DNA from: Candidatus Pacearchaeota archaeon CG10_big_fil_rev_8_21_14_0_10_34_76
GTDB lineage: Archaea > Nanobdellota > Nanobdellia > Pacearchaeales > GW2011-AR1
Assembly (NCBI GenBank): GCA_002763075.1
Contig: PFDB01000002.1
Location: forward strand, 1 to 62,285
Direction of reading: 5' to 3'
Length of the DNA: 62,285 nt
A model generated the notes under the pieces. That model was not told the DNA's origin. It did not search any database and saw only the letters and a program-made list of their open reading frames with translations. The translations under genes were made by a program, and so were the position numbers. Positions 11,435 to 57,078 of the stretch are shown one piece after another. Numbering within the stretch: the first letter of the stretch is position 1; each line of letters opens with the position of its first letter.

Positions 11435-11437
11435 ACA

Positions 11438-13026: not shown

Positions 13027-13046
13027 GATGAATGATTTTGAAGAGA

Positions 13047-13157
13047 TTTTTGAGAGATAATTATGAACAGTTACCAAGGACTACATTGAGATATGCTATT
13101 GAGCGATTTGATAAGGAAGAAAGATTAAGATATCTTAAGGGTTCTTTCGATTCTTGA
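13047..13157 (+). pseudogene. C-terminal remnant of DNA alkylation repair (AlkD-like) protein
   Basis: Reads FLRDNYEQLPRTTLRYAIERFDKEERLRYLKGSFDS*; no start, upstream in-frame stop. Confidence 0.55.
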
Positions 13158-38510: not shown

Positions 38511-38721
38511 CCTCTTTATTATCCCATAATTTTCTTGCAACTTTCTCAGAATGTTTTAATAAATCTGAAAAATCTTCTTTTTTGACTTTTTTGAGAACGA
38601 GAGAATCATCACTCCGAGTAATAATTAATTCATCTCCTTGTACAATCCTAAGAGAGTCTCTCATTGCCACAGGCAGAGAAATCTGTCCTTTATCTGTAAC
38701 CTTAATTATTTTAGTATCCAT
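38488..38721 (-). CDS. AbrB/MazE-family antitoxin
   Basis: VTDKGQISLPVAMRDSLRIVQGDELIITR; overlaps toxin start. Confidence 0.85.
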   Translation of the reverse strand: MDTKIIKVTDKGQISLPVAMRDSLRIVQGDELIITRSDDSLVLKKVKKEDFSDLLKHSEKVARKLWDNKEDEVWNNV

Positions 38722-38853: not shown

Positions 38854-39039
38854 ATGAATGTTCATAATAATAAAATACTTGAAATCTTAAAGAGAGAAAA
38901 AGTCGTTACTAGTTCTGAAATTGCTAAGGATCTTAAAATTTCATGGAATACCGCTGACAAATATCTTCTTGAACTTGCATTTGAAGGAAAAATAATAAGA
39001 ATAAAGAAATTAGGAGTGAATCTATGGCTTTTGAAATAA
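38854..39039 (+). CDS. small winged-HTH protein
   Basis: ILEILKREKVVTSSEIAKDLKISWNTADKYLLELAFEGKI. Confidence 0.8.
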   Translation: MNVHNNKILEILKREKVVTSSEIAKDLKISWNTADKYLLELAFEGKIIRIKKLGVNLWLLK

Positions 39040-39815
39040 AAAATAAAAAAGGACAGGTAGCAATATTTGTTGTTATTGCCCTAGTTGTTGTGGCAATAAT
39101 AATACTCTTTTTTGTTTTTCTAAAGAAGGATATAAGAATTGATGTTGGGGGAGAGTTTAATCCTGAAAACTATGTTGAGAGATGCGTAAGGGGTGCTATT
39201 GAAGATAAATTAGAGATTATGCTTCCTCAGGGAGGGTTTGTGGATCCAAAAAATTATCATCTTTACAATGATATAAATGTGGGTTATTTATGTGATAATA
39301 TAAACCGATTTGATCCATGTATTACTCAATATCCTGATTTTGTTGAGCAGGTAAGCAGAGAGCTTGAAAGAGAAACAGAAGAAGACATTGAGATGTGCTT
39401 TTACACCCTTGAAGAAGAGTTAGATAGTAGAGGTTTTGAAGTTAGTGGGGGGGAACAAAAAATAGATGTGAACGTAAAACAGGAAAAAATTGAAATAAAG
39501 GTTATTAAAGAATTATCAATCTCAAAGGGGGAAAGTGTACAGAGATTTTCCTCATTTAATGCTGTTATTTTAAGCCCTCTTGGAAAAATGGCAGATATTG
39601 CAGGGAATTTTATTGCTTATGAGGAAGCTAGAAATTGTTATGCAGAAAATCTAGGGTATGTTCTTGCTTACGGAAACAAAAAGAACATTGATATAAAAAA
39701 GGCTGAGTCATATGATTCTACAAGAGTCTACACCATTATTGACACAAATTCTGGAAAGGAAATGAATATTGCAATAAGGGGGTGTGTTCTAGGACACGGA
39801 TTTTATGGAGAGTAG
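39024..39815 (+). CDS. pilin-like membrane-anchored protein (cassette A)
   Basis: N-terminal KKGQVAIFVVIALVVVAIIILFFVF; paralogous to 43647 ORF. Confidence 0.8.
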   Translation: MAFEIKNKKGQVAIFVVIALVVVAIIILFFVFLKKDIRIDVGGEFNPENYVERCVRGAIEDKLEIMLPQGGFVDPKNYHLYNDINVGYLCDNINRFDPCITQYPDFVEQVSRELERETEEDIEMCFYTLEEELDSRGFEVSGGEQKIDVNVKQEKIEIKVIKELSISKGESVQRFSSFNAVILSPLGKMADIAGNFIAYEEARNCYAENLGYVLAYGNKKNIDIKKAESYDSTRVYTIIDTNSGKEMNIAIRGCVLGHGFYGE

Positions 39816-42800
39816 GAAAAAAGTGATAGTGGGATTTGAGGTATTTCTTCTTGTCAGCTTTAGTGTTGCGTTTGCATATTTAATATATCAGGAAAATAAA
39901 TCTGTGCTTCTTCCTTATGTTGATGAAGGAAAATTCATAGGAAAGACAAGGGCAGTCATTCTTGATCATCTTGGTAAAAACTTAGTTTCTGCACAGGAGG
40001 CTATGAATACTTGTACTGTTGATATAAATGGGAGGTTCTGCCAAGAATATATTGCTTCAGAATGTGAAGAGAAGTGTGATGTTGCAAATGAAGGAAGATG
40101 CCTTCCATCTAGGGCTGAAGAGACCTCACTCTGCAAACTTGGTACATGTATTACTGGGGATGGGTTGAGTTGTAATCCTAACACTCCAAAATTAAGATGT
40201 GATGATATTGGAGGGACATGGGATGAAAGAGGGGCTGGAGAAATTCCCCAATGTCAAAAAGGATGCTGTTTTATTGGAAGTGAAAATAATTTTGTTACAA
40301 GTGCGCAATGTAATTCGTTGTCTTCAAGCAGTGGAATAATTCTTGATGGAGAAAATAACAGATTTGACCCAGGAATAAGATCAGAACTACAATGTTTGCT
40401 TTTAGCAAATCCTTCTTCGGAAGGTGCATGTGTACTTTCTTCTAACATCCCTGAAGAGAATGATTGCCAGTTCACTATAAAAAGTTCATGCAATACACTT
40501 GGAGGAGATTTTTATGAGGGCAAATTATGTTCTAATTCAGAGATAAACACTATTTGCGAAAAGCAATCCACAACAGGAATTGTTGATGGAAAGGATGAAA
40601 TATATTGGTTTGATTCGTGTGGAAATAAAGAAAATATTTATGAGGGTGGAAGTGGTGTAGCGAGGCAAAGAAGCTGGAATAATGGGTCTATTTTATCAAA
40701 GGCAGAAAGTTGCATTTTGGGAGATGAAAGAAATCCATTAAAAAATCAAGCAAGTTGTGGAAATTGTAATTATTTAGATGGAACAAAAGCAGGGCTTGCA
40801 CAAAGTGGAGATACAAAAAATTCCGATGGAGGGAATTATGTTTGCAGAGATATAAGATGCAGCTATACAGATCAATTTGGGAAGAGAGTAACTAGAGAAA
40901 ATGGAGAGGCTTGGTGTAGTTATGAAAGTCAGATTGGAACTGAAGGAGAAGGGAATGAACAGAGAGGACTTGATGTTCCTGGAAGTAGCCATTACAAAAA
41001 TGTGTGTCTTAATGGAGAGGTAAGAATTGAGCAATGTGCTAGTGGAAGACAACAGATATGTTCTGAATCAAGGGATGAGGAAATTGGATTTTCGTCTGCT
41101 GCATGCAGACCCAATCAATGGGCAAGATGTTTTGCATTAAATCAGGAGGGCTCTGACCTGAGTAGATGTGAAGATATAACCGACTGCACACTTAGAAATA
41201 TTGATTTAACCAAAGGAGGCAATGATAATTTTAAGTTCAGTTTGTGTGTGCCTAAATATCCTCCAGGATTTGACCTAAAGCCTGATTTGGATGTATTTGG
41301 ACAGATAAGTGGGGAAGTAAGAAGTGATGCAGAAATTGCATGCGGGCTTGCAAGTTTGAAGTGCACAGAAGTTAGTGTTGGTGGCCTTGGAGGAACAAAG
41401 AGAACAAATGATTTATGTCATGATAAAGTATTCACAGAGACATTAAACAACCTGTGCATGAGTTTAGGAGACTGTGGAGGAGGAGCTAATATTGTTGGGG
41501 AATATACGGATGACGGGTATAGCGTCAATTTTGAGGATATAGATTTACAGCAAAATTATATTTCTGCTTTGAGAAAAGTTGCAAGGGCTGTAGAAGGACA
41601 AAGGGGTGAGCCATTGAGTGCTGATGAGATTGCTAGTTTTTATAATGTGAATACAGGAAGTGCAGATTACAAACCAGAAGATGCTCAGTTGGCTTTGATT
41701 GGAACGGTTGGAGGATTGGCAGGAATAACTCTCGCATATGCTGTACAAGCAGGATGGATAAGTGGAGCAGGGAGTGTTGCTGGAGGAGCAGAGAGTATTG
41801 CTGCAGGTGCTGCTGAATTTGCGGGACCGGAAGCAGCTGATGCATTTTTAGCTGAACATGCTGGACCTGGCCTTGGAGCATATGCAGGAGCAGCGGCTGG
41901 AGCATTGATTGGAGCTGCTACTGTATCATTGCTTTTGAAATATACTGGAGTTGGAGCTGGATTGAGCAAGGAAATTCAATATGCATTGATTGCTGGAGGA
42001 GCGATTGCAGGAGCTATTGCTGGATGGTCTTTAGTAGGGGGGACGGGGGCATTTGCAGCGGGATTTAGTTGGGTACCCGTCGTTGGTTGGGTTCTTGGAA
42101 TACTGGTTATAGGATTCATTGGACTTGGATGGCTCCTTGGATGGGGAAAGAAGAAGGAGAAAGAAGTTGTTTTCACATGCAAGCCTTGGGTGCCTCCTTC
42201 TGGAGGAGCTGATTGTGGTAAATGCGGAGATAATGGATTGCCTTGCAATGAATATAAGTGTGAAAGTCTTGGAACTGCATGTGAATTTTTGAATGAGGGA
42301 ACAGATGCAGAAATTTGTGTTGCTGTTGAGGATAAAGATGCTGGACCTCCTATAATAAAATCAGACAGAGATCCTCTGACTGAAGGATTTGATTATACTC
42401 AAGAGTCTAATCTTGGATTTAATGTTATTGGGAATACTAGTGATGGATGTTTGCCCGCGTATACTCCTGTGAAATTTGGGATTGAAATTACAGAAGCAGG
42501 GCAATGTAAATATGACATTGTGCAAGGAAAAGATTTTGAGACAATGAGTTATGATTTTGGAGGAAACTTATTCAGGATGAATCATGTCATGAGTGTGTTT
42601 ATGCCTGCATTATCTGCATTGCAGGAAGAAGGAATAAATCAAGATGTTAGAGCAGACTTTAATCTTTTTGTGAGATGCAAAGACAGAGCAGGAAATGCAA
42701 ATGAAGTTGATTACAATGTGAGATTCTGTGTCTCTCCTGAAGATGACTTAACTCCTCCAATAATCTCCAGGTTCAGCCCCGCGAATGGAGGTTTTACTGC

Positions 42801-43647
42801 ATTTGGAGCAACAGAAAGGAACGTGAACTTCTTTGTGAATGAGCCATCAGATTGTAGATGGGATTCACAGGATGTTGATTATGATGTTATGTTGAATGAA
42901 GTAAACTGCGAGCAGTCTGCTGGGTCTACTACACTATTGGGATACAGGTGTGAAGTCAACGTCCCAGTGAATTCTGACTTAGAAGAAAATAAGTATTATC
43001 TTAGATGTAAAGACCAACCCTATCTTGAAATAAGTAATCCTGATGGAAAGACAAGGAATAAGAATACCCAGAGTGTTGAATATATATTAAAGAAGAGTAA
43101 TGAGCTTAAGATAGTAAGTATCTCTCCAGGGAATGACGAGACCATTACAACTGGAAACGTTGAATATGTTGGAATTGAATTGAGTGTGCAAACAGAGGGA
43201 GGAGCAGAAGGAGCAAGAAGAGTGTGTGAATATGATTCTGCAAACAATGGGCTGTTTGACGAGTTCTTTGAAACTGGAGGAGATATTCATAAACAGAATA
43301 TGAATTTAATTTTCAGGGATTATGAGATACCCATTAAATGTGTGGATGATGCAGGCAATAAAGCTGAAGGCATATCGAAGTTTACAATTGATATTGATAA
43401 CATCGGACCCATAATAACTAGATTTTATAAGCAAGATAATGAATTGAAGGTTATAACTCACGAAAATTCAGTATGCGCATTTAGTAATTTAGGAAGGGAT
43501 TTTGAATTCGTAAATGGAACATTGATGAATGGAAATGAGATTGCACATAGTACTTCTTTTGAAAATTCATTTACGTATTATGTTAAATGCAAAGACGGAT
43601 TTGAGAATATTGGAGGGAGTGTAGTAATAAGGGAGGGATTCTTTTAA
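39805..43647 (+). CDS. giant Cys-rich surface protein (1280 aa) with internal Gly/Ala-rich hydrophobic region
   Basis: Signal/TM N-terminus, dozens of Cys, two halves homologous to 45302 and 48279 ORFs. Confidence 0.85.
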   Translation: MESRKKVIVGFEVFLLVSFSVAFAYLIYQENKSVLLPYVDEGKFIGKTRAVILDHLGKNLVSAQEAMNTCTVDINGRFCQEYIASECEEKCDVANEGRCLPSRAEETSLCKLGTCITGDGLSCNPNTPKLRCDDIGGTWDERGAGEIPQCQKGCCFIGSENNFVTSAQCNSLSSSSGIILDGENNRFDPGIRSELQCLLLANPSSEGACVLSSNIPEENDCQFTIKSSCNTLGGDFYEGKLCSNSEINTICEKQSTTGIVDGKDEIYWFDSCGNKENIYEGGSGVARQRSWNNGSILSKAESCILGDERNPLKNQASCGNCNYLDGTKAGLAQSGDTKNSDGGNYVCRDIRCSYTDQFGKRVTRENGEAWCSYESQIGTEGEGNEQRGLDVPGSSHYKNVCLNGEVRIEQCASGRQQICSESRDEEIGFSSAACRPNQWARCFALNQEGSDLSRCEDITDCTLRNIDLTKGGNDNFKFSLCVPKYPPGFDLKPDLDVFGQISGEVRSDAEIACGLASLKCTEVSVGGLGGTKRTNDLCHDKVFTETLNNLCMSLGDCGGGANIVGEYTDDGYSVNFEDIDLQQNYISALRKVARAVEGQRGEPLSADEIASFYNVNTGSADYKPEDAQLALIGTVGGLAGITLAYAVQAGWISGAGSVAGGAESIAAGAAEFAGPEAADAFLAEHAGPGLGAYAGAAAGALIGAATVSLLLKYTGVGAGLSKEIQYALIAGGAIAGAIAGWSLVGGTGAFAAGFSWVPVVGWVLGILVIGFIGLGWLLGWGKKKEKEVVFTCKPWVPPSGGADCGKCGDNGLPCNEYKCESLGTACEFLNEGTDAEICVAVEDKDAGPPIIKSDRDPLTEGFDYTQESNLGFNVIGNTSDGCLPAYTPVKFGIEITEAGQCKYDIVQGKDFETMSYDFGGNLFRMNHVMSVFMPALSALQEEGINQDVRADFNLFVRCKDRAGNANEVDYNVRFCVSPEDDLTPPIISRFSPANGGFTAFGATERNVNFFVNEPSDCRWDSQDVDYDVMLNEVNCEQSAGSTTLLGYRCEVNVPVNSDLEENKYYLRCKDQPYLEISNPDGKTRNKNTQSVEYILKKSNELKIVSISPGNDETITTGNVEYVGIELSVQTEGGAEGARRVCEYDSANNGLFDEFFETGGDIHKQNMNLIFRDYEIPIKCVDDAGNKAEGISKFTIDIDNIGPIITRFYKQDNELKVITHENSVCAFSNLGRDFEFVNGTLMNGNEIAHSTSFENSFTYYVKCKDGFENIGGSVVIREGFF

Positions 43648-44447
43648 TGCGGAAAGATTATAAACAAATTAATGCTTTTTTAAGAATGGAAAAGAAAGGG
43701 CAGATAGCAATATTTGTTGTTATCGCTTTGGTGATTGTGGCAGTGATAATAGCTGTTTTTCTTTTTCCAAATATAAATGTTGGGACAAGTGCAGAAGTAA
43801 ATCCTAATTCTTTTTTGAGAGAGTGTATTGATTCTGAGATGGACGGTGTACTTGAGGCAGTGAGTGCTCAGGGGGGAAGTATAATTCCAGATAATTACAT
43901 AATGTATCAAGATGATAAAATTCAATATCTTTGTTATACTTCAGAATATTATAAGACCTGTGTTGTGCAGCAGCCACTTTTGGTAAGGCATGTACAGAAT
44001 GAAATTAAAAAAGTAATTGAGCCAAGTGCGCAGCAATGTCTAAGAGAGCTTATTGATGAATATGAAAGCAAGGGATATGATGTCCAGGGCTCTGCGGGGG
44101 AATTGAATGTGACAATTATCCCTGGAAAGATTAATGTAGAGTTCAATGCTCCATTGAGTGTCACCAAAGAAGGAACTCAGTCATTTAGAAAATTTGGAGT
44201 TTCTATGGAAAGCGAAATATATGATCTGTTAATGACTGCTACAAGCATAGTGCAGTTTGAATCGAGTCTGGGAGATTCAGAGCCATTGATGTATATTCAG
44301 TATTATCCTGATCTTAAGATTGAGAAGATAAGCAGGGATGATGGGACAACAATCTACAGGTTGAGTAATGTTGTTTCTGGAGATAGATTTACATTTGCTT
44401 CAAGGAGCCTTGTATTCCCTGCAGGATACGGACTTGAAAATCAGTAG
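43647..44447 (+). CDS. pilin-like membrane-anchored protein (cassette B)
   Basis: KKGQIAIFVVIALVIVAVIIAVFLF; full-length similarity to 39024 ORF. Confidence 0.8.
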   Translation: MRKDYKQINAFLRMEKKGQIAIFVVIALVIVAVIIAVFLFPNINVGTSAEVNPNSFLRECIDSEMDGVLEAVSAQGGSIIPDNYIMYQDDKIQYLCYTSEYYKTCVVQQPLLVRHVQNEIKKVIEPSAQQCLRELIDEYESKGYDVQGSAGELNVTIIPGKINVEFNAPLSVTKEGTQSFRKFGVSMESEIYDLLMTATSIVQFESSLGDSEPLMYIQYYPDLKIEKISRDDGTTIYRLSNVVSGDRFTFASRSLVFPAGYGLENQ

Positions 44448-44823
44448 AGAAGATACGGACAGTGTTGTATACATTATTAGGGATGGAGCTGTTGATTTAG
44501 TAAATAAGTTTTTTAGATTGGAAAAAGCAGTTGTGGAATTGGAAAAGTTTTCTTTGCTTACTCTTATTGGGAAAGAGAGATTTGATTGCGAGGTTGCAGG
44601 ACTAGAAAGCGATTTAGAAAGTTTTATGGAACTAATAAAATGCTGCCCAAAAAAATATAGAAGAAAAATTCCAATTGATTCTGCTGTAGGATTAGGAAAT
44701 ACATTATATAGAAAATATGATTGCTTGAAATCAAGATATCTAGCATTATCAGAAGAGTATGTTGAACTTGGTGAATTGTGTGAGGGGTCAACTTTTGCTG
44801 AGCTTGATGAAGATGATGACTAG
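44434..44823 (+). CDS. hypothetical cytosolic protein
   Basis: ORF track; likely TTG start 44434 overlapping previous stop. Confidence 0.5.
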   Translation: MKISREDTDSVVYIIRDGAVDLVNKFFRLEKAVVELEKFSLLTLIGKERFDCEVAGLESDLESFMELIKCCPKKYRRKIPIDSAVGLGNTLYRKYDCLKSRYLALSEEYVELGELCEGSTFAELDEDDD

Positions 44824-44879
44824 AAGCAATGTGATAGAATAGCTAAAGATATAAAAATATCAAAAATCTGTAAGATACA

Positions 44880-45260
44880 ATGACAAGTTTACAATCAAGA
44901 GATGCTCCTTATTGTACTACTCTTTCTATTGCATCTGCTATTTCTAGATTGGAAGCAGATTTAACAAGAATACGTGAGAAATCTTCTGCTGAGGATGTGC
45001 CCTGGAAATTACTTGATACTGAGTCTAGAGTTGGAGAGGTTTATTCAATGATAGAGGACATGGAGGGAAACAACACTAGAGATGATGGATGGAATAGTCT
45101 GGCAAAAATCTTTAGAGAGTCTCTTGGATATGTTGAAGAAAAATTGCTCGGGCAACCAAGAGCTGGAAGTAGTACTATGGCAATTTGTAGGGCAATGCTA
45201 GGAAATGCAATGTATACTACTCCAGGAGTTATTAGAACAGGACATGGAATGGAATTTTAA
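44880..45260 (+). CDS. hypothetical protein
   Basis: ORF track. Confidence 0.55.
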   Translation: MTSLQSRDAPYCTTLSIASAISRLEADLTRIREKSSAEDVPWKLLDTESRVGEVYSMIEDMEGNNTRDDGWNSLAKIFRESLGYVEEKLLGQPRAGSSTMAICRAMLGNAMYTTPGVIRTGHGMEF

Positions 45261-45301
45261 TTGAGCATAAGATATAAAAATAATAGAAACGCAGGATTGA
45301 T

Positions 45302-46816
45302 ATGAAAAAGGGTGTGATTTTGATTTTATTATTGGTGGGAGTTTTTTTTATTACAAATATTGATTATTCAAGCGCACAGCAAAATACTGTCTGTTGTGAA
45401 CAAACAACTTCTGGCGCATACTGCCAGGATGTACCTGCAACAGAATGTGCTGAAGGATCGAGGCAACTTTCAACTTCTTGTGAATCTACTAGTTTTTGCA
45501 AGGCGGGGACATGCTATGATTCATCTGAAGGGACATGCTTAGATAATACTCCTCAGATAGTATGTAATACGAATGGAGGGACTTGGAGCGAGGAGAGTCC
45601 TGCACAATGTAATCTTGGATGCTGTGTTCTTGGAGACCAGGCCTCTTTTGTTACATTGGTAAGATGTAAAAGACTTTCTTCATTTTTAGGTTTGAAAACA
45701 AATTATGACATGGGAATAACAAATGAATTAAGTTGCGTACAGAGTGTTCAGGGGAAAGAAAAAGGAGCATGTGTTTTTGAGTCTGAGTTCGAAAAGACAT
45801 GTAAGTTTCTTACAAGAGATGAATGTGAAAATTCTCAGGAAAGTGTTAATGGAACGTTGATAACAGATGGAGATTTTTATGCGGGAAAATTATGTTCTGC
45901 TGAAGAGCTTGGGACTAATTGTGGTCCATCTGAACAAACAACTTGTCTTGCTGGAAAAGATGAAGTATATTTTGTGGATACATGCGGTAATCCTGCTAAT
46001 ATCTATGATGCTTCTAAAATAAAAGACAAAGAATATTGGGCAAATACCAAAACAAAGAGCGAAAGTTGTAATCCTGATTCTGGAAATCCTGGAAGCGCAA
46101 GCTGTGGAAATTGTAACTATTTGCAAGGAAGTTTCTGCAGAGCGGAAAGCAAGACAGATAGTAAATCAAGTTATGGAGATTTTGTATGTGCTGATTTGAA
46201 TTGCAAGGATTCTACTGGGAACGAAAGGTTACATGGAGAAAGTTGGTGTGTTAATGATGATAAAACTCCAAACGATGGAGCTAATGATGTTGGAAGCAGG
46301 TTCTTTAGAGAAATTTGCATAAATGGAGAAGTTGTTACAGAAGCTTGTTCTGATTTTAGGAATCAGGAATGTATCGAAGACAAAATAGAAACTTCTAACG
46401 GAGACTTTTCCCAGGCAGCTTGTAGGGTTAATAGATGGCAGGATTGTTTGATACAAAATGATAAAAATGATTGTGAGAATTCTGACAGAAGAGATTGTAT
46501 TTGGAAGGAAGGATTGTCTCTTGGAAACGCAACAAATGAAGGAAGCTGTGTGCCTGCAAATCCTCCTGGATTGAATTTCTGGGAAGGCCAAGAGTCTTCA
46601 GTTATTTGTGCTCAAGGTAATTCACAGTGCATTGTAAAGTTTGAGAAAAGACTCCTTGGTGGTGGAGAGAAATGTGTTGAGAATTGTGAATGTCTTACAG
46701 AAGAATGGGAAAAACAAAGATCAGATTTATGTTCTGCTATTGCAGATTGTGGGCCTAAAGTGAATTGGATTGGGAATGAAGGCAATAAGAAGGGTTTTGA
46801 GATAATAAAAAGTTAG
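45302..46816 (+). CDS. Cys-rich secreted protein, homologous to N-terminal half of 39805-43647 product
   Basis: Signal peptide; GGTWSEESPAQCNLGCCVLGDQASFVT vs GGTWDERGAGEIPQCQKGCCFIGSENNFVT. Confidence 0.85.
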   Translation: MKKGVILILLLVGVFFITNIDYSSAQQNTVCCEQTTSGAYCQDVPATECAEGSRQLSTSCESTSFCKAGTCYDSSEGTCLDNTPQIVCNTNGGTWSEESPAQCNLGCCVLGDQASFVTLVRCKRLSSFLGLKTNYDMGITNELSCVQSVQGKEKGACVFESEFEKTCKFLTRDECENSQESVNGTLITDGDFYAGKLCSAEELGTNCGPSEQTTCLAGKDEVYFVDTCGNPANIYDASKIKDKEYWANTKTKSESCNPDSGNPGSASCGNCNYLQGSFCRAESKTDSKSSYGDFVCADLNCKDSTGNERLHGESWCVNDDKTPNDGANDVGSRFFREICINGEVVTEACSDFRNQECIEDKIETSNGDFSQAACRVNRWQDCLIQNDKNDCENSDRRDCIWKEGLSLGNATNEGSCVPANPPGLNFWEGQESSVICAQGNSQCIVKFEKRLLGGGEKCVENCECLTEEWEKQRSDLCSAIADCGPKVNWIGNEGNKKGFEIIKS

Positions 46817-46875
46817 TTCTTATGTAACTTAAAAGTAATGAAAAAGTTTATAAAGTCTGAATCTATATAAAATAC

Positions 46876-47637
46876 ATGTCTCAGCATCATGAGAGAGGTG
46901 ATGCAAAGAGAAGAGTCAGGAATGGCTTGATTAGTTCTGTTTTATTAGGTGTTACTTTAGGTGGTCAAAGTGGATGTATTTCTCCGGAAGAGAGGCTTAC
47001 ACAGGGAAGGATTAGTCAGCAAGAATATCAAAACATTAAAAGTAATCAAAATGCTTTATTTTTAGGATTGCTTGGGGGTTGGGCTGTTCAAGAAGGAAAG
47101 CCTCAGGCGGCATACGTGGCAAATGCTCTTGCTCAGAATAATAATGCTCAAGCTGGAAGAAGTGAATTGAAACAAGAAGTTAATACATATTCTGCTCCTC
47201 AGACTACTGATTGGGCAAAACTTCCTGTTGTGAATGTTGAGCCAGTCCATAAAAATGGAAATGGAGCACATCATTTTTATAGTGAAAATTTTGGAGAAGT
47301 TGTCAGAGGTACTTTCAATTATGTATTTGATTTTAATAATGATGGATGTTATGATTATCCTGAAGAATATCAAGGAGAAAAGGATTATTTTAAGAGTAAA
47401 GAAAAAATTGATGTCCGGATCAATTGCTCAAAGCAATTATCTAATCTCTCTTATAGGTTAATAAATGGAAATGGAGAGATTGTTGATGAAATTTCGACAG
47501 ATGAGAAGAGTAATGGGGTAAGCAGAGTGTATAATTTTGGAGATGATGCGAAAATGCTAGAGCCTGGAGATTATAGGGCATTGTGGTATTCTGATGGAAA
47601 ACTTGTTTCACAATGGGAGTTTGTACTAAAAGAATGA
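46876..47637 (+). CDS. lipoprotein-like secreted protein
   Basis: N-terminal hydrophobic segment followed by GGQSGC. Confidence 0.6.
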   Translation: MSQHHERGDAKRRVRNGLISSVLLGVTLGGQSGCISPEERLTQGRISQQEYQNIKSNQNALFLGLLGGWAVQEGKPQAAYVANALAQNNNAQAGRSELKQEVNTYSAPQTTDWAKLPVVNVEPVHKNGNGAHHFYSENFGEVVRGTFNYVFDFNNDGCYDYPEEYQGEKDYFKSKEKIDVRINCSKQLSNLSYRLINGNGEIVDEISTDEKSNGVSRVYNFGDDAKMLEPGDYRALWYSDGKLVSQWEFVLKE

Positions 47638-48221
47638 AATCAAATAATAAATCGGGAAGATTGAGAAATAATTTGGTTTTGGGTGCTACAGGATTGAGTC
47701 TTGCAATCGGAGGGTGCACTAGTTTTGTAGAGGTTAGTCCTGTAAGAGAGTATAGACCGAGCTATTCGGCGGAGAGTCTTGTACAGGGTAGAGTTGATGA
47801 AAATTATGTTAAACAAGTAGTTGATCTTAATAGCTCAAATTTTGATGATTTCGTAGAAGATGGAAATAAAGTAGTTGCTTTCTGGAATGGATATGAATCT
47901 GGTAATTATGGTTTTGGTGCAGGTACAAGATGGATAGAACATTTGAATTCATTAGAAGTGGTTGCTGAAATGGTGCCTTACGCAAATTTCGGGAGAATTA
48001 ATGTATCAGAGAATAAGAATCTAGGAAAGAAATACTATGTGACATTGGACGCACATAATTGGAAAAATGGAAGCATGATAGAAATGATTTACTTTAGAGA
48101 TGGAAAACCCCTAATACGTGAAGATATAGGCTTTGAAAGAGGGTTGTTTAGAGTGCGGTCCATATGTGAAGATCTTTATCTTCAAGGCAAGGTGCCTGTT
48201 GAGAAGACAAACTCTGAGTGA
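47634..48221 (+). CDS. lipoprotein-like secreted protein
   Basis: Lipobox-like LAIGGC; 4-nt overlap with upstream CDS. Confidence 0.65.
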   Translation: MKSNNKSGRLRNNLVLGATGLSLAIGGCTSFVEVSPVREYRPSYSAESLVQGRVDENYVKQVVDLNSSNFDDFVEDGNKVVAFWNGYESGNYGFGAGTRWIEHLNSLEVVAEMVPYANFGRINVSENKNLGKKYYVTLDAHNWKNGSMIEMIYFRDGKPLIREDIGFERGLFRVRSICEDLYLQGKVPVEKTNSE

Positions 48222-48278
48222 GGTTAAAATCTCGTTGACTGACTAATCTTTATAAATATAGAAGTTCCTTATATAAAT

Positions 48279-50687
48279 ATGAAAAAGAGAGGCTTGGGTA
48301 TTTTATCAGGTGTGCAGATATTCTTGTTAATTGTTTCAATGATTTCTTTTAGCTGGATTCTTGGACAACCCAGTTTTGTTAGTGCACAATCTGCAACACA
48401 AAGCCCAACTAGGACTGGAGGAACAAATTCTGTAGGTTACTCGAAAATTCATACTTATTCTGTTGATGGAGAAACTCAAACCCTTACTCAAAAAGTAATC
48501 GGAGGAGAACTAAAATATTATGGTAATGATGGAGAAATAATTGGGGATGGAGTTGTTAAGGGTATAGCTACCAAAAACAACCTTGACCTTTCTGGAGGAT
48601 ATAATTATGTTGTGCAAAGCTCATTAACTAAATCTAATTTACAATTGAGCAGTTTGAAGGTTGGGCAAGATTTAGGAAATGGATTAACTATTAAAGAAAT
48701 TGGAAACATTGATGGAAAATATGCTGGGACTGTCTCTGTTCCTGGAGGTCAAGAGATTCCAATTGAGGGTTCTGGCAGTACTCGTTTGGGTTCTGCTACT
48801 GCAAAATCTCTTGGATTAACAAAAGAAAGAGGAATTCCTGCATTAGGAATTACAACTACAAACTTTCTTGGAGGACATCTTCTTGAAGGATTAACTTGGA
48901 GTTTGTTTGTCGTTGGTGCTATACAATTAATTGCTCCACTTTTAGGAGCTGATTCCGATATGACTAATGCATTAAGCGTTGCTGCCACTGCAGGAATCAT
49001 GTCTGGAAAACTAGCTTATGGACTTTTTGGTGCTGGAACTAGTACGGCAGATGCTGGACTTCTAGGAAGCTGGCTATCTCCGACCTATGCGACAGGGATT
49101 GGGATAGCAGTCGCTGTTGTTGTATTTGTGGCTTTGTATAAGAAAGACAGCAAGAAAGTGATTGAATTCCAATGCAATCCTTATGAGCCTCCGCTTGGAG
49201 GAGCTGATTGTAATAAGTGTGGAAGTGATGGTCTGCCGTGTTCTGAATATAGGTGTAGAAGCCTTGGACAGGCGTGTGAGCTTTTGAATTCTGGAAGTAA
49301 GGAAGAAAAATGTGTTTGGGTGAGTAAGGATGATGTAAGAGCTCCAACAATGACTCCTTCTACTTCGGCATTAACTGAAAGACATAAGTATACAAATCAT
49401 GAGACAAGGCCTCCAAGTCTTGGAACAAAAATAGTTAGAGATGATAGCACTAATGGATGTATTAAGCCATTTACACCCCTAACATTTGGAGTGGTTACAA
49501 ATGAGCCTGCACAATGCAAAATAGATATTGGAAACATGAAGAAATTTGATGAGATGAAGTTCTTCCTTGGGGAGACAAATCTTTTCTTGGAGAACCATAC
49601 TCAAGAGATGAGATTGCCATCTCCTGATGCAATAGCAGAATTTGGTGGGGAAGAGCTTATCATTGGTGCTGATGGGATATATGACTTTTATGTGAAATGT
49701 CAGGATAAGAATGGGAATGTAAATGAAGAAGATTTTGTTTTCAGTTTCTGTGTTGATCCAACACCAGATACAACGCCCCCGATAATTGAAGATACTTCCA
49801 TAAGAGATGGAAGTCCTGTTGCATTTAACTCTGAGAAGATTGATTTAAGTTTGTTCGTGAATGAACCTGCCGAATGTAAGTGGAGTGTGCAAGACAAAGC
49901 ATTTTTAGATATGGAAAATAATATGAGCTGTTCAACTGAGGTATATCAACAGAATGCAAACCAATTGTATAGTTGCTCTACTCAACTTACAGGAATAAAG
50001 GATAGAGAAGAGAACAGCTTTTATTTCAGATGTAAGGACCAGCCAAATAAGCCAGATAATGAAAGAAATGTAAACACTCAAAGCAAAAAATTCACATTGT
50101 TGGGAAGCCAAGAATTGAATATAATCAGATTCTCTCCAGAGGCTAACAAGACATTATTTGATAGCACTGAAAGTGTACGACTCACGTTGGAAGTTGAGAC
50201 AAGCAATGGAGCTAACGAAGGGCAGTCTATATGTTATATAAGCCCTAGTGGAAATCCTGATAGTTATATAGCCATGTCTGATACGAATAGTTTCAAGCAT
50301 TCACAATTATTAGTATTGCCTGCTGGGACATATAACTACTACTTTAGGTGTATTGATGCGGGGGGAAATAGTGACGAAGCCATTACTAATTTCCAAATTG
50401 AAACCGACAATAAAGCCCCATTCATCACTAGGTTGTATAAAGAAGGTGTTGACGCTCTTAAAATAATCACTAATGAGAAGGCTGAATGCTCTTACTCAAT
50501 AAACACCTGTAACTTTGAAGTTGCTGATGGAATTGATATGAGAACGCTGGATGTGGAGAAGAAAGTTATTCATTTTGCAGAATGGAAGACAGGCCAAACA
50601 TATCATATAAAGTGTGCTGATGAGTTTGGGAACCAACCTGCACCAGATGCCTGTACAATACAAATTAGTGCTTCGACATTCGAGTAA
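48279..50687 (+). CDS. Cys-rich secreted protein, homologous to C-terminal half of 39805-43647 product
   Basis: Signal peptide; FQCNPYEPPLGGADCNKCGSDGLPCSEYRCRSLGQACELLN vs FTCKPWVPPSGGADCGKCGDNGLPCNEYKCESLGTACEFLN. Confidence 0.85.
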   Translation: MKKRGLGILSGVQIFLLIVSMISFSWILGQPSFVSAQSATQSPTRTGGTNSVGYSKIHTYSVDGETQTLTQKVIGGELKYYGNDGEIIGDGVVKGIATKNNLDLSGGYNYVVQSSLTKSNLQLSSLKVGQDLGNGLTIKEIGNIDGKYAGTVSVPGGQEIPIEGSGSTRLGSATAKSLGLTKERGIPALGITTTNFLGGHLLEGLTWSLFVVGAIQLIAPLLGADSDMTNALSVAATAGIMSGKLAYGLFGAGTSTADAGLLGSWLSPTYATGIGIAVAVVVFVALYKKDSKKVIEFQCNPYEPPLGGADCNKCGSDGLPCSEYRCRSLGQACELLNSGSKEEKCVWVSKDDVRAPTMTPSTSALTERHKYTNHETRPPSLGTKIVRDDSTNGCIKPFTPLTFGVVTNEPAQCKIDIGNMKKFDEMKFFLGETNLFLENHTQEMRLPSPDAIAEFGGEELIIGADGIYDFYVKCQDKNGNVNEEDFVFSFCVDPTPDTTPPIIEDTSIRDGSPVAFNSEKIDLSLFVNEPAECKWSVQDKAFLDMENNMSCSTEVYQQNANQLYSCSTQLTGIKDREENSFYFRCKDQPNKPDNERNVNTQSKKFTLLGSQELNIIRFSPEANKTLFDSTESVRLTLEVETSNGANEGQSICYISPSGNPDSYIAMSDTNSFKHSQLLVLPAGTYNYYFRCIDAGGNSDEAITNFQIETDNKAPFITRLYKEGVDALKIITNEKAECSYSINTCNFEVADGIDMRTLDVEKKVIHFAEWKTGQTYHIKCADEFGNQPAPDACTIQISASTFE

Positions 50688-50723
50688 CGAAAGCTTTAAT
50701 TATTAAATTTCTTAAGTGATAGT

Positions 50724-51194
50724 ATGCAGAAAAGAGGTTTGCAGCTTGCGTTTGGATTTATATTCTCAATTATATTAATTGCGGCAATTTTATTTGTGTC
50801 TTTCTATGCAATATCAAAATTTAGTGGGGTGAAAAAATGCACTGAAGGTGCATTGTTTTATGAGAATTTTCAAGAGAGAATTGATTCTGCCTGGAGATCT
50901 GAAATAGTAAAAGATGTTTTCAGTGAGAGAGTTTCTTCTGGAATTAAGGAAGTTTGTATTGGAGAGTTGAGCAACCTGGAAGAAAAATATAGAATCCTAG
51001 AAGATTATTCATTTTCAGGAGGGAATGTTTTTATGTGGCCTCCTGAAAAAGCTTGTGAAGACTTTGCTAGCCATAAGATTGAGCATATTGGATTTGAGAA
51101 TAGTGGAATAAAATGCTTTACAGTTGTCAATGGAAGAGTGGAAATACCTATAGAGAAAGGAAGCACTGATGCCTTGGTGATGATAAGAAGATGA
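50724..51194 (+). CDS. pilin-like protein
   Basis: MQKRGLQLAFGFIFSIILIAAILFVSFYAISKF. Confidence 0.7.
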   Translation: MQKRGLQLAFGFIFSIILIAAILFVSFYAISKFSGVKKCTEGALFYENFQERIDSAWRSEIVKDVFSERVSSGIKEVCIGELSNLEEKYRILEDYSFSGGNVFMWPPEKACEDFASHKIEHIGFENSGIKCFTVVNGRVEIPIEKGSTDALVMIRR

Positions 51195-51222
51195 TTGGAA
51201 TTAAATGTGGAGGGATTTGTTG

Positions 51223-52179
51223 ATGACATCAAATAGATTGATTAACATTAACAAAAAGGGACTGGAATTCACATTTGCATGGCTTTTTGCCATAATAGCC
51301 GGTGCGGTGATAATTTTCATTGCTATTTATGCAACAACCCAGTTTATTGGGACAAGTAAAGATGCATCTAATGCAAAAATAACTGGAGAGGTTGGAAGCA
51401 TTTTAGAGTCTGTGGAGACTAGCCTTGAAGAAGGGAAACAAATAAAGATTGAATTCCCTGATGAAACCAGGATTTACAATAGGTGTGATGATTTTGGAAA
51501 TTTTGGAAGGCAGCTTCTTAGTGTAAGTGTGCGAAGCGGAATTGGAAATGAGTTTCAAAGATCTGAAAATGAACAAGCATTTTTTGATAAATATATATTC
51601 TCAGAGGAACTTGTGCAAGGAAAGGAAGTCAATATCTTTGTAAAACCTTTTGAGATGCCGTATAAAATAGCTAGTTTGGCATATATCTATTCAGAAAATT
51701 ATTGTTTTGTCAACCCTAGTGGAGATATAGAAGATGAGATCAGAGGGTTAAACCTAAAAAATGTTAATATAAGTGAGAGTGTTGGGGGGTGTGCAAGAGA
51801 GAGTATTAAGGTGTGCTTTGAAAGTGCGGGTTGTGATGTGAATGTGAATCTTGAAGAACAAAGTGTCACAAAAAATAGAATCAAAGTATTTTATGAGGGG
51901 GATTCTTTAATGTATGGAGCAATTTTTGCAGAGCCAGAGATATATTTGTGCCAGGTAACAAGACTAATGAAGAGAACTGGAGAACTTGCACATGTTTATT
52001 CTTTGAAGGCAGAATTTTTAGAGGGAAAAGGATGTACAACAGGATTAGACAATAAGATGAAAATATATGCTTCTAATCTTGCTAATGTAGAATCTGATAA
52101 AGATGATATTAAAGCTATTGGAATAGAAAGTACAGAAATAAGGAGGAGTAATGAAAAATTATCTTGTAAGCTGTTCTAA
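51223..52179 (+). CDS. pilin-like protein
   Basis: NKKGLEFTFAWLFAIIAGAVIIFIAIYATTQF. Confidence 0.7.
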   Translation: MTSNRLININKKGLEFTFAWLFAIIAGAVIIFIAIYATTQFIGTSKDASNAKITGEVGSILESVETSLEEGKQIKIEFPDETRIYNRCDDFGNFGRQLLSVSVRSGIGNEFQRSENEQAFFDKYIFSEELVQGKEVNIFVKPFEMPYKIASLAYIYSENYCFVNPSGDIEDEIRGLNLKNVNISESVGGCARESIKVCFESAGCDVNVNLEEQSVTKNRIKVFYEGDSLMYGAIFAEPEIYLCQVTRLMKRTGELAHVYSLKAEFLEGKGCTTGLDNKMKIYASNLANVESDKDDIKAIGIESTEIRRSNEKLSCKLF

Positions 52180-52663
52180 GGGCCAGATGAAGGTTCAGCA
52201 GATGGCTTTTGTGCTTGTGGCATTAGTTATATTTTTTGTTATAATAGGATTATTTTTCCTCAGTATATCCCTCTCCTCGTTGAAGAACTCTGCTCAAGAG
52301 ATTAGAGAGAAAGATGTATTAGAGAGCATAAAGAGAGTCACTTCTATTCCTGAATTTGCATGGACTATAGATGATTGTGCGTCTTGTATTGATATGGATA
52401 AGGCAATGGCGTTTAAGGGAAGGGCAAGTTATGTTGGATTTTGGGATTATTCATTCTTTAGAATTGAGAAAGTTTATCCTATTGAATCTGGTGGAGAATG
52501 TACATTATATAACTATCCTGAATGCAATACATTGACTTTAATCAATAAAAGCATAATTCCAGATAGTAAGAGCGCTTTTGTTTCTCTTTGTAGGTATGAA
52601 CCTGAAGAAGGTTATTATAAATGTGAGCTGGGGAAGGTAATAATTGCGGGGGAGGCAATATGA
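52151..52663 (+). CDS. pilin-like protein
   Basis: SKGQMKVQQMAFVLVALVIFFVIIGLFFLSI; overlaps neighbours. Confidence 0.7.
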   Translation: MKNYLVSCSKGQMKVQQMAFVLVALVIFFVIIGLFFLSISLSSLKNSAQEIREKDVLESIKRVTSIPEFAWTIDDCASCIDMDKAMAFKGRASYVGFWDYSFFRIEKVYPIESGGECTLYNYPECNTLTLINKSIIPDSKSAFVSLCRYEPEEGYYKCELGKVIIAGEAI

Positions 52664-53163
52664 TGAAAAAAGGACAAGAGGAGATTGTAGGATTTATTAT
52701 GGTTGTGGTATTAGTAGTAGTTATCCTCCTTATCTTCTTAGGACTAAATATACGAAGTGGGGATAATCCTATTTTGCAAGATAGTGTCAAAGCAAGACAA
52801 TTTTTAGAGAGTTCTATGGAATTTACTACAGATTGTGCAATAGGATATATTCCCGCCTATGCTAGAATAGGGGAAGTTATAAGAGAATGTTCAAGAGGAG
52901 GGAGATGTGTTGATGGTAGAAGCTCGTGCGAAGTGCTAAATACAAGTATTTCTGGGCTTGTGGATGCAGGGTTTAATATAGGGGAAGATAATCCCATAAA
53001 AGGATTTAGGTTCAGGTCTTATTATTCATCTAATTCAAGCAATTCTGAAGAGGATATTATAGAACTGTCAAGGGGGCAATGTAATAATTCATTGACTGGC
53101 TCAGAATATCTTATTCCTGCATTTCCTGGAAGGATTGTGACATCTGTTGAATTGTGTAGTTAA
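52660..53163 (+). CDS. pilin-like protein
   Basis: MKKGQEEIVGFIMVVVLVVVILLIFLGLNI; 4-nt overlap. Confidence 0.7.
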   Translation: MMKKGQEEIVGFIMVVVLVVVILLIFLGLNIRSGDNPILQDSVKARQFLESSMEFTTDCAIGYIPAYARIGEVIRECSRGGRCVDGRSSCEVLNTSISGLVDAGFNIGEDNPIKGFRFRSYYSSNSSNSEEDIIELSRGQCNNSLTGSEYLIPAFPGRIVTSVELCS

Positions 53164-53519
53164 AGCTTTAATTCTATATTTATAGAATCCAAAATAATCC
53201 TTGGTCTAAGCCTTTCTCTTTTACCTGTTTTCTCTGCTATCAGATCTATAAACCCAAATTTTTCCATTAATTTGATATCATCACTCACAGATTTGAAGTC
53301 TCTACCGAGCATCTTCGCTAAGGCATAAACAGATTTTGGACTCTTTGTTTTTATTGTGTGCATCATCCTTGCCTTTTCATTTGAAAGCAATCCCCTTAAA
53401 GCAGAAAGGCCTTCAAAGTCGTAATCCTTTTTGTTTCCAGGAAACTTTTTGAATAAAGCTGAGAATGTTCCCTGTTTATCGACGATAGTTATTTGCATGC
53501 TCTTTGTTTTTTGCGCCAT
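53160..53519 (-). CDS. winged-HTH transcriptional regulator
   Basis: TKSPKSVYALAKMLGRDFKSVSDDIKLMEKFGFIDL. Confidence 0.75.
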   Translation of the reverse strand: MAQKTKSMQITIVDKQGTFSALFKKFPGNKKDYDFEGLSALRGLLSNEKARMMHTIKTKSPKSVYALAKMLGRDFKSVSDDIKLMEKFGFIDLIAEKTGKRERLRPRIILDSINIELKL

Positions 53520-53932: not shown

Positions 53933-56380
53933 ATGAGATTTAATTTTAGAAAAATCGCATCTGCAGCTGCATCAACCTTAATGGTTGGATCTACAGTTGC
54001 TTTGGCTGCTGCCGCAAGCTATCCTGCTCCCTTCGTGACTAACGGACAGGCAGACGTAGGAATTGTTTACGGAAGCAGTGCTCAGCCAACTGACTTGGTC
54101 GCAGCTACAGATATTGCTACAAATCTACAATCTGCTTTGACTTCACAGGGAGGCAACAGCGGAGGAACTCCAACAGGCGGGGACTTTGTCCAACTAGATA
54201 GATCTAGTGACCGTTTGAACCTAGGAAATGCTGTCAACGGGCCTTTCGGGCCAACAGTTGATGACGATGACTTGGAAGTTCTTTTAGCTGACGGCACATA
54301 CTCTGCTGAAGACAATGATGAGTTTGATTATGAACAGAAGATAACCTTAGGAGCTTTTTCATTAAGTCATTTCAGAGACTCTGACTATGAATCTCTTGTA
54401 GGCTTAAGTGAGAGAACTCCAGTTATTGGATTCCAAATCAGTTCATCAAATACATTGATTGCTAACTATTCTCTTGATTTCACTTCTGATGCTGAATCAG
54501 ACGTTGCTTCAGGTGATTTGGAGGATTTTGAAGGAAGCGACATAATGCTGTTTGGCAAGAAATATTATGTTTCTGATGCTAAAAACGGCACTGCTGCTGC
54601 AAACTTCGGAACATTCACATTACTAGATTCTGCAACTACAGGAATAGTTTCTGAAGGAGAAACTATAAGTGTTACAGAGAGTGGAAAGACATACAATGTA
54701 CAGATTACATTCATAAGCAGTGATAAGGTCATTTTTGATGTTAATGGTGAAACTACTAATTCCATGAGTGAAGGGGAGACCTATAAACTATCAGATGGAA
54801 CATATGTAAGCCTTAGGGATAACTTATATGTTTCAAAAGATACTGGAATCAGTAAAGCCGAGTTTAGCATTGGTTCTGGAAAGTTAGAGATAACTTCTGG
54901 AAACGAAATTAAAATGAACGATGACACTGTTGATGGTGTAAGAGCATGGTTTGTCAGAGGAACATCTGTTTCTGGCGCTGAGAGACTTGACAAGGTAGTT
55001 GTTGAATGGGTAACTGATGAGGAAGAGTTTATCACATCTGAAACAGGGCTTCAAATGCCTGGTCTTGGGGGAATCAAGTTCACAATGAACGATTTCTTTA
55101 GACCAACTGAGGAGACCATAACTGTTGCAGGAGATTCTGATACAAATCTACAGATAACATGGCCATTTGTGGATGGAAGCGCAAGCTTACATCTATTATA
55201 TGCTAATGCATCTGGAGAATTTTTAGGAATTGGAAAGGCAGCAGATGAAAGGTTAGCTACATCAGCAAACACTACATTGACATACTATGAGAAACAGACT
55301 AATGACAATTATCATAGGTATTTCATAGCTTCGTACAATACCACTACAGATTCTTCATCTTATTTATTGTCTGCAAACATCAGAGAAGATACTGATGCAA
55401 ACAGAAATGAAACAATAATAAAGAATGAGATCACTGGTGAGACATTCGGAGCAAGAACTGCTGGAGATACATTGGACGTTGGAGATGTTAGATTAACAAT
55501 TGTTGCTGTTGACAGGAACGCATCTGACGAGTGGATGACTATCTCTGCAGGAACAAACACTAATTTCAACACAATCTATACAAAGGGTGGTTTGAAAGCG
55601 TGGTTGCCTGTAGATCAGAACGCTACCTACATTAATGGAGGTATTGACTTTACTGACGCAGATCAAGCTATTGCTGGAGCAGGACACAATATGGACACTT
55701 GGTTACTCTTCTTTGATGAAGAAGACAAAGACGATAATATTGCTGCTGGAACTGCATTCAATCTGACTGCTGACGACAACTCCGATGGAGATGTACATGT
55801 CACGCAAGTTAGTGGATCAGGCAGTGGAGGTCCTGGAGCTCAGGAAGTGGGAGACAGTACTGGAGTCTATGAAGCCTATCTGACATCTGATGTTGCTACA
55901 AGGACATTGCACTACACCAAACCTGATAGGGATTGGGCAGAAGTGCTGTATCCTGCAGGAAGCGATGGAGATTCAGAATCATATGCTGAAGTGTTCTTGG
56001 CTGAAACTTCTACAAGTAGTGGAAGCGGAGGAAGCTTAGGCAGTGTGACTGTTCTTGATAGTGAAGCTTCACAGGTATCTGCCAATCACTTAATTGTTGT
56101 TGGTGGAAGCTGTGTTAACACTGTTGCTGCTCAATTGTTAGGAAGCTCTAGCCCTATGTGCGGAAGCGCATTCGAATCAGCTGCTGGAATTGGTTCTGGA
56201 AGCTACTTAATCCAGACATTCAATAATCCATTCAGCGGAGCAAAGGTTGCTACATTAGTGGCAGGTTATAACGCTGCTGATACAACCAATGCTGCAAAGG
56301 CACTAACAACTCAGACTGTAGACACAACTGTTGGCAAGAAGTACACTGGTACATCTTCTGATAGTCTTGAGTTAGCTTAA
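53933..56380 (+). CDS. S-layer protein (815 aa)
   Basis: MRFNFRKIASAAASTLMVGSTVALAAAASYPAPFVTNGQADVGIVYGSSAQPTDLVAATDIATNL matches archaeal S-layer N-domain pattern; RBS GGGGGT. Confidence 0.88.
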   Translation: MRFNFRKIASAAASTLMVGSTVALAAAASYPAPFVTNGQADVGIVYGSSAQPTDLVAATDIATNLQSALTSQGGNSGGTPTGGDFVQLDRSSDRLNLGNAVNGPFGPTVDDDDLEVLLADGTYSAEDNDEFDYEQKITLGAFSLSHFRDSDYESLVGLSERTPVIGFQISSSNTLIANYSLDFTSDAESDVASGDLEDFEGSDIMLFGKKYYVSDAKNGTAAANFGTFTLLDSATTGIVSEGETISVTESGKTYNVQITFISSDKVIFDVNGETTNSMSEGETYKLSDGTYVSLRDNLYVSKDTGISKAEFSIGSGKLEITSGNEIKMNDDTVDGVRAWFVRGTSVSGAERLDKVVVEWVTDEEEFITSETGLQMPGLGGIKFTMNDFFRPTEETITVAGDSDTNLQITWPFVDGSASLHLLYANASGEFLGIGKAADERLATSANTTLTYYEKQTNDNYHRYFIASYNTTTDSSSYLLSANIREDTDANRNETIIKNEITGETFGARTAGDTLDVGDVRLTIVAVDRNASDEWMTISAGTNTNFNTIYTKGGLKAWLPVDQNATYINGGIDFTDADQAIAGAGHNMDTWLLFFDEEDKDDNIAAGTAFNLTADDNSDGDVHVTQVSGSGSGGPGAQEVGDSTGVYEAYLTSDVATRTLHYTKPDRDWAEVLYPAGSDGDSESYAEVFLAETSTSSGSGGSLGSVTVLDSEASQVSANHLIVVGGSCVNTVAAQLLGSSSPMCGSAFESAAGIGSGSYLIQTFNNPFSGAKVATLVAGYNAADTTNAAKALTTQTVDTTVGKKYTGTSSDSLELA

Positions 56381-56499: not shown

Positions 56500-57045
56500 A
56501 TGAGAAAAATAAGGACGCCTGAAGAAGTAGAAAAGTCTGAGAAAAGAAAAAGATTGATTGTAGGAGTTATTTTAATTGGCTTAATGGCATTTAGCAGTTT
56601 GGGATATGCTTTTTTTGGTCTTGGAAGTTCCTCGGAATCAGATGAGAGTTTATCTAATCCATATTTTGATGGAAACCAATGGATATTGGATACTGGAGGG
56701 ATTAAATTTTATCTTGTCAATTCTGTAGAAAGTGTGAAGGATATTCCTGTGGATATAGAGAATAACCTTCAAGATTATCTGGGGGCTCCACTCTTTATTG
56801 CTTCAGATAACGATCTTAGCACAAATGAAGTGGCTGCAAATCTTGGACAATATTCATCTAGGATGCAAAGGGCGTGTTATGGGGCGTGTGAAGAGGATCT
56901 TCCAGAAAAGGATTGTACTGAGAACCTTATAGTCTTTAGAGAGTCTGAGCAAAAAAGTGTTTTGCAAGAAGATAAATGCGTATTTATCAATGGAGACATT
57001 GAATCAGTTGATGCATTTTTATATAGCTTAGCGGGGAATTACTAG
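56500..57045 (+). CDS. membrane-anchored protein, unknown function
   Basis: One N-terminal TM; RKRLIVGVILIGLMAFSSLGYAFFGL. Confidence 0.65.
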   Translation: MRKIRTPEEVEKSEKRKRLIVGVILIGLMAFSSLGYAFFGLGSSSESDESLSNPYFDGNQWILDTGGIKFYLVNSVESVKDIPVDIENNLQDYLGAPLFIASDNDLSTNEVAANLGQYSSRMQRACYGACEEDLPEKDCTENLIVFRESEQKSVLQEDKCVFINGDIESVDAFLYSLAGNY

Positions 57046-57078
57046 AAACATTTAAAACACTCGAGCGTATTTGATTTT

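Follow-up and report, generated by a model that had tools for sequence, protein, structure and literature searches.

What kind of structure is encoded by a run of co-oriented genes that places proteins with pilin-type N-termini beside giant cysteine-rich proteins? The locus lies on contig PFDB01000002.1 of Candidatus Pacearchaeota archaeon CG10_big_fil_rev_8_21_14_0_10_34_76 (assembly GCA_002763075.1), analysed here over its whole stretch of 62,285 nucleotides (the window), which is contig C15 of a draft genome of 0.91 Mb in 21 contigs that is 88% complete. Between 39024 and 53163, the + strand encodes three cysteine-rich open reading frames (ORFs) and six proteins whose N-termini are of the prepilin type. 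An initial annotation, made from the letters of the window, had proposed that they form an undescribed surface apparatus. With modest confidence, we favor the view that the locus specifies the part of a type IV filament-superfamily machine that is exposed at the surface, in which a giant protein and four minor-pilin-like subunits would serve contact or attachment through the S-layer. As judged from gene content, the cassette of pilus-type proteins with a giant disulfide-rich surface protein is conserved across the sampled DPANN phylum, where most of the genomes share it. The core parts are as follows (aa, amino acids; a slash marks the putative prepilin cleavage site).

39024..39815, + strand: B, pilin-like protein 1, 263 aa, KKG/QVAIF, the partner of the intact cysteine-rich protein C (motif and gene order).
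39805..43647, + strand: C, cysteine-rich protein of 1280 aa, with an N-terminal signal or transmembrane (TM) segment, a cysteine-rich N half, Gly/Ala-rich hydrophobic helices (~691-777) and an immunoglobulin (Ig)-like C half (AlphaFold2; Ig/FN3-type matches).
41875..42135, + strand: predicted hydrophobic helices of C, residues 691-714, 722-744 and 757-777 (model).
43647..44447, + strand: D, pilin-like protein 2, 266 aa, KKG/QIAIF, a paralogue of B (motif and model).
45302..46816, + strand: G (CysN), N-terminal half of a second, split cysteine-rich protein, 504 aa, 43 Cys.
48279..50687, + strand: J (CysC), C-terminal half of the split protein, 802 aa, 21 Cys, with hydrophobic helices followed by Ig-like domains.
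50724..51194, + strand: K, pilin-like protein 3, 156 aa, KRG/LQLAF (looser motif rule).
51205..52179, + strand: L, large pilin-like protein 4, 324 aa, KKG/LEFTF, the most widespread member (looser motif rule; profile).
52151..52663, + strand: M, pilin-like protein 5, 170 aa, SKG/QMKVQQ (motif).
52660..53163, + strand: N, pilin-like protein 6, 167 aa, KKG/QEEIV (motif).
53933..56380, + strand: P, S-layer protein, 815 aa from its ATG (the ORF opens at 53849; PF05124 E 6e-13, TIGR01564).

What makes six of these proteins pilin-like? Genes were called in the window and in 85 loci from relatives across the phylum, and families were labelled with hidden Markov models (HMMs); unless stated otherwise, counts of loci and family members refer to these 86 loci. 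The motif rule is our own, modelled on archaeal class III signals and distinct from FlaFind: [KR][GAS] followed by Q and a hydrophobic helix without charged residues. The motif is present in 210 of the 321 members of five pilin-like families that have an N-terminal TM segment, versus 1/159 other ORFs with such a segment, and in none of the cysteine-rich, S-layer, Q and R families (Q and R are small membrane proteins downstream). Among the window proteins, the +1 residue is Q in B, D, M and N (G/Q). K and L (R-G/L and K-G/L) satisfy only a relaxed and less specific rule for +1, with a background of 21/159. The initial annotation had read these N-termini as pilin-type signals, and the enrichment of the motif bears this out, with putative sites present under our rule and cleavage itself predicted only.

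The likeness to pilins may not extend to the whole protein. In a structure model of D (121 sequences; predicted local distance difference test, pLDDT, 91), a TM helix at residues 16-39 is followed by a low-confidence linker and an alpha/beta domain, and a Foldseek comparison with PDB structures gave no match (best only E 3e-3, TM-scores of ~0.1-0.2). As modelled, the B/D fold is not the canonical pilin fold. K and L have in common an 80-residue N-terminal module that reaches past the TM segment (hhalign 97.4%). No pilin-like or cysteine-rich family of the window scored over the cut-off in Pfam or NCBIfam, whether single proteins or family profiles were used, so the HMM match to a characterised system that could have overturned the initial annotation did not appear; sequence searches of the PDB with profiles of B/D, L, CysC and CysN returned nothing convincing.

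How well is the arrangement conserved? Gene-order counts use labelled genes only, so that unlabelled ORFs may lie between them, and many loci end at contig edges. The conserved unit consists of one to four modules, each a B/D pilin-like protein plus a cysteine-rich protein, followed by the K-L-M-N cassette. The B/D gene precedes the cysteine-rich unit in 119/120 cases, a cysteine-rich gene precedes K in 55/55, and K-L-M-N is complete in 44/86 loci, the rest being partly cut by contig ends. The 1280-aa protein is matched in 87/116 related genomes, and among the best 80 of 240 matches to the CysC family the named records are mostly Candidatus Pacearchaeota, in line with the DPANN origin that the initial annotation assumed. 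The variation in module number across the phylum suggests lineage-specific expansion. One relative (locus L052, genome G009) has three tandem modules.

The pattern extends beyond the order. Among 382 genomes drawn across the phylum, the profile of L (A2) matches 300 and that of CysN 124; one single-contig genome (490,885 bases) has neither an L-profile match nor a match to the 1280-aa protein. In 20 outgroup loci, taken from genomes with a weak CysN match or none, K-L-M-N stand in series in 18, and a cysteine-rich protein precedes K in 17/17. Many of these loci encode a cysteine-rich giant of 1.6-2.5 thousand amino acids (kaa) with 80-138 Cys, often preceded by a B/D relative. The giants are homologous to the window family (hhalign of CysC versus giants, 99.4%, E 1.8e-21; CysN versus giants, 92.8%, E 3.9e-7). 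The gene-neighborhood survey that the initial annotation had called for thus found conserved co-occurrence across the sampled phylum, where its absence would have spoken against an apparatus.

The locus also extends further to the right than the stretch first annotated, past a divergent helix-turn-helix (HTH) gene, O, into the S-layer gene P, and to the left it reaches PCNA and primase, which usually flank it in the window's own order. Among labelled genes, N is followed by P in 42/42 loci, and P closes the unit in Pacearchaeales and nearby families. PF05124 (S_layer_C) is matched by P only, the cysteine-rich proteins being without a match. This constant neighbor raises the alternative of a non-filamentous, membrane-anchored S-layer complex, in which the giant and the pilin-like proteins would be anchors, pores or collars and the prepilin-type signals would act in membrane insertion only. 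There is a model for such a role: in the archaellum stator proteins ArlF and ArlG, a pilin-type N-terminus is joined to a globular domain in contact with the S-layer. The gene context of ArlF/ArlG differs from that of this locus, and D has no fold match. The alternative would account for the central or C-terminal TM segments of the giants, for the globular B/D domain on its linker in the D model, and for the failure to find an ATPase within the loci. Six separate prepilin-type proteins and the K-L-M-N arrangement point instead to an assembled pseudopilus or pilus, as does an evolutionary link to an operon for an ATPase, a TadC-like platform and a peptidase (described below). We regard an S-layer complex as a credible but doubtful explanation.

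What are the cysteine-rich proteins? G matches C residues 61-576 at 39% identity and J matches C 646-1268 at 35%, and the second cysteine-rich copy is fused into one protein of 1.2-1.4 kaa in two related loci (L060 and L063). Because G and J match the two ends of C and are fused elsewhere, we read them as a split paralogue of C, so that by sequence comparison the window has one intact and one split copy. The initial annotation was right that there are three ORFs with a real and conserved cysteine content, and its two "halves" are one split protein. The commonest cysteine counts are 43 in CysN and 21 in CysC, with 64-66 in full-length members. The number is odd in 46/55 CysN and 34/46 CysC members and even in 63/72 full-length members, counts that are not independent, given that the genomes are related. 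From this parity, odd in the split halves and even when fused, at least one disulfide between the CysN and CysC halves is predicted. In L060 (genome G012, 6448-14955), the two cysteine-rich proteins agree in all of their first ~30 residues and one antisense ORF recurs at both sites, which suggests recent gene conversion or duplication.

An AlphaFold2 model of C residues 68-1267 (pLDDT 82.5) has a cysteine-rich N half, the three hydrophobic helices and a beta-rich C half. Foldseek matches this model to Ig/FN3/cadherin-type arrays, with TM-scores of 0.1-0.3 and the Aureispira grappling hook protein GhpA as top match. Sub-threshold Ig-like Pfam matches (Big_13) in 22/26 CysC members agree with these Ig-type matches. 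What C has in common with GhpA, an array of Ig-like adhesive domains, comes down to Ig-type domains and is no sign that the two systems are homologous. A single fixed TM topology was set aside, since the number of helices varies from 0 to 5 among family members; the giant is probably membrane-anchored. A phage origin was also set aside, the 1280-aa protein having no phage match. The Gly/Ala-rich central helices could conceivably insert into the membrane of a partner cell and act as a contact-dependent translocator. Hydrophobic Gly/Ala-rich central segments in many members and the predicted host-dependent lifestyle of DPANN would fit such a device. We nevertheless consider it very improbable: the segments vary widely in sequence as well as number, the outgroup giants have ordinary C-terminal anchors, and the sole translocator among the PDB matches of the profile (AopB, E 2.7) is a chance hit.

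Where is the assembly machinery? The initial annotation had supposed that it is encoded elsewhere, and this proved correct. There are three T2SSE loci in the genome. The first (contig C1) has two T2SSF proteins and a KaiC/ArlH-like ATPase, the second (C11) a PilB3-like ATPase and a T2SSF protein, and the third (C7) a 754-aa T2SSE ATPase, a 719-aa TadC-like protein and a run of eight pilin-like genes. Of the three, only C7 has an A24 prepilin peptidase (PF01478) nearby, at C7:17256-17570 in a 276-aa ORF with a GGDAK motif, ~1 kb from the C7 pilin-like genes; PF06847 had no match in the genome. Outgroup loci connect C7 with K-L-M-N. A 354-aa pilin-like family of C7 lies within a few genes of N in 14/20 outgroup K-L-M-N loci, with E values of ~1e-5 to 3e-24 and similarity that reaches well past the TM segment. 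In this genome the neighbors of the C7 pilins are RadA and an OB-fold RPA-like gene, and RPA flanks the outgroup K-L-M-N in 5/5 examined loci and RadA in 2/5. Because the C7 pilin-like family and RPA/RadA adjoin K-L-M-N in the outgroups, gene order favors one ancestral super-locus, now split in Pacearchaeales, with C7 as the motor; the ATPase and platform for the locus thus most likely come from the C7 operon.

The two other candidates were rejected. The strong statistical association of the C11 ATPase with the locus is confounded by phylogeny, and this ATPase was not found in genome G072 (one contig, 77% complete), which keeps a pilin-plus-Cys unit and a C7-type ATPase. The archaellum-like system of C1 lacks its ATPase in 54/77 genomes with strong matches to CysN-CysC (CysNC). 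No archaellum operon (ArlH/ArlI/ArlJ with archaellins) is present in the locus, and a KaiC/T2SSE/T2SSF set is present on C1. The C1 region (L055) also has pilin-like genes and an 836-aa protein that resembles a vWFA protein with a prepilin-like N-terminus; by gene content, this set, which occurs in a minority of relatives, is possibly an archaellum-like system. The PilB3-like ATPase of C11 has as its neighbor a 986-aa protein (L056:9369-12329) whose N-terminus contains Cys and parts of which, by eye, resemble the window S-layer protein; this second S-layer-like protein may go with the C11 pilus. In some relatives the assembly-ATPase ORFs reach ~1.0-2.0 kaa and their matches are interrupted at similar points (C11-type in G028, G024, G023, G021, G062, G020 and G077; C7-type in G049, G040, G020, G070 and G104), which suggests inteins or similar insertions.

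How might the parts work together? From the genes we infer cleavage and assembly, the pairing of disulfides, a position at the surface, the choice of motor and the function; the filament, its stabilisation by disulfides and the host attachment that the initial annotation had suggested are likewise proposals. B, D and K-N would be made with prepilin-type signals and cut by the C7 A24 peptidase. K-L-M-N, three small proteins and one large, would form a minor-pilin complex assembled by the C7 ATPase and TadC. The cysteine-rich protein would be exported and oxidatively folded, perhaps by Thioredoxin_4 proteins, of which the genome encodes four. Each giant copy (C; G plus J) would have its own B/D partner. 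With disulfide-rich N domains, a membrane anchor and an Ig-like array, the giant may be an outward-facing adhesin or an S-layer-spanning scaffold, displayed through or above the S-layer, where its Ig/Cys arrays could bind a partner cell or surface. Several observations weigh against a filament-type module driven by C7. First, D has a 24-residue membrane helix with a linker and an alpha/beta domain in its model, as opposed to the long continuous helix of classic pilins. Second, the variable central helices of the cysteine-rich proteins suit a membrane anchor over a detachable pilus-tip protein, as do several outgroup giants whose C-terminus is a TM segment with a charged tail. Third, the C7 ATPase is near-universal, even in genomes where CysNC was not found, and went undetected in four draft genomes with CysNC (G001, G025, G029 and G034). 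The C11 ATPase tracks CysNC better (72/77 versus 12/39), an association confounded by phylogeny, and it too went undetected in a few draft genomes with the locus. Fourth, VKOR was not found in the genome.

Is the apparatus new? It has several type IV filament features (prepilin-type signals, a prepilin peptidase in the genome, and an ATPase with a TadC platform among three T2SSE/T2SSF-type loci), and on predicted gene content it is best filed as a variant of the type IV filament superfamily and not as a categorically new machine. The layout is closer to that of a module of a giant with minor pilins than to a filament standing by itself. In Myxococcus, one PilY1 and four minor pilins form the priming/tip complex of the type IVa pilus (T4aP), and several such clusters can share one motor (PMC7541494). 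As with FimU-PilVWX-PilY1 (PMC7541494), one large extracellular protein is encoded here beside exactly four minor-pilin-type proteins, and a corresponding role is suggested by this layout. Unlike in PilY1 clusters, the giant carries Cys repeats together with TM segments and Ig arrays, and each giant is preceded by an extra B/D pilin-like partner; no locus protein had a Pfam/NCBIfam match over the cut-off to the PilY1, vWFA or PilX/FimU families. The catalogue of archaeal type IV pili (T4P) by Makarova, Koonin and Albers (2016; PMC4858521) includes loci with S-layer-like, adhesin-like and disulfide-rich parts. The present locus and its putative motor resemble these systems in their prepilin-type proteins, TadC, T2SSE ATPase and S-layer-like or adhesin-like proteins, and conserved cysteines occur in the Thermoproteales systems. 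They differ in that the families here match no pilin Pfam/NCBIfam over the cut-off and that the ATPase and TadC are in a separate operon in Pacearchaeales. Searching the text of that study gave no mention of Pacearchaeota, Woesearchaeota or DPANN, and no paper describing the locus was found in the part of the PMC literature searched.

The K-L-M-N cassette could also be read as the GspH-K-like tip of a type II-secretion-like or DNA-uptake (competence-type) pseudopilus, with the giants as exported substrates or receptors. Three small and one large pilin-like protein are the composition of the minor pseudopilins of type II secretion systems, the genome is reduced, and the adjoining replication and repair genes (primase, PCNA, RadA, RPA) hint at nucleic-acid uptake. 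Such genes are ordinary conserved neighbors in small genomes, and no member of L, M or N has a Pfam pseudopilin match; we judge this explanation improbable.

What would a filament-type surface module mean for these organisms? It is an open question how most DPANN recognise other cells and hold on to them, and hardly any of these archaea are in culture. A functional precedent, by analogy, is the T4P-2 pilus of the episymbiotic Saccharibacteria, in which a large adhesin-like minor pilin mediates host binding (PMC12206443); it differs in its bacterial T4aP machinery. A bolder version of our proposal is that DPANN across the phylum use the locus to build a pilin-based contact organelle for which no counterpart has been described in other archaea or in bacteria. 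Its giant, a membrane-anchored Ig/Cys protein with disulfide bonds, would pass through the S-layer to dock onto a partner cell. We think this version unlikely. The cassette provides concrete genes and antigens to seek in enrichments, from the giant surface protein and the paired pilins to the S-layer gene and the likely motor, and it would extend the layout of a large protein plus four minor pilins to archaea.

The remaining ORFs within and beside the locus are as follows.

38854..39039, + strand: A, small winged-helix regulator, 61 aa, an optional member (HTH_11 E 6e-6).
44368..44823, + strand: E, 151-aa ORF, no homologues in the other 85 loci.
44880..45260, + strand: F, 126-aa ORF, no homologues in the other 85 loci.
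46876..47637, + strand: H, lipoprotein-like ORF between the split halves, in about 7 loci.
47613..48221, + strand: I, second lipoprotein-like ORF between the split halves, in the window only of the 86 loci.
53160..53519, - strand: O, divergent HTH regulator between N and the S-layer gene, kept in Pacearchaeales loci (PF25212 E 1.3e-15).
56500..57735, + strand: Q and R, small membrane-anchored proteins, often after the S-layer gene (gene neighborhood).

The ORFs from 38854 to 53163 in the window ORF list are all on the + strand and several overlap, as the initial annotation had described. Its inclusion of the small cytosolic (E, F) and lipoprotein-like (H, I) ORFs as apparatus parts did not hold: by their distribution, these are mostly lineage-specific cargo, and E and F, having no homologue in other loci, are outside the conserved apparatus. 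A is present in 9 loci, including the window. H and I are unrelated ORFs inserted at the split point between G and J. The region around the split cysteine-rich protein (46876-48221 in the window, and in other Pacearchaeales loci) appears to be an insertion hot spot whose ORFs differ from genome to genome: besides lipoproteins, there are a Polbeta/HepT-like pair right before CysN in L059 and a 676-aa ORF right after CysC in L040. Finally, between PCNA and the locus, the window carries a MazF/PemK-like toxin and MazE/AbrB-like antitoxin pair at 38163-38721 on the - strand (PF02452 E 2.5e-16; PF04014 E 1.2e-11).

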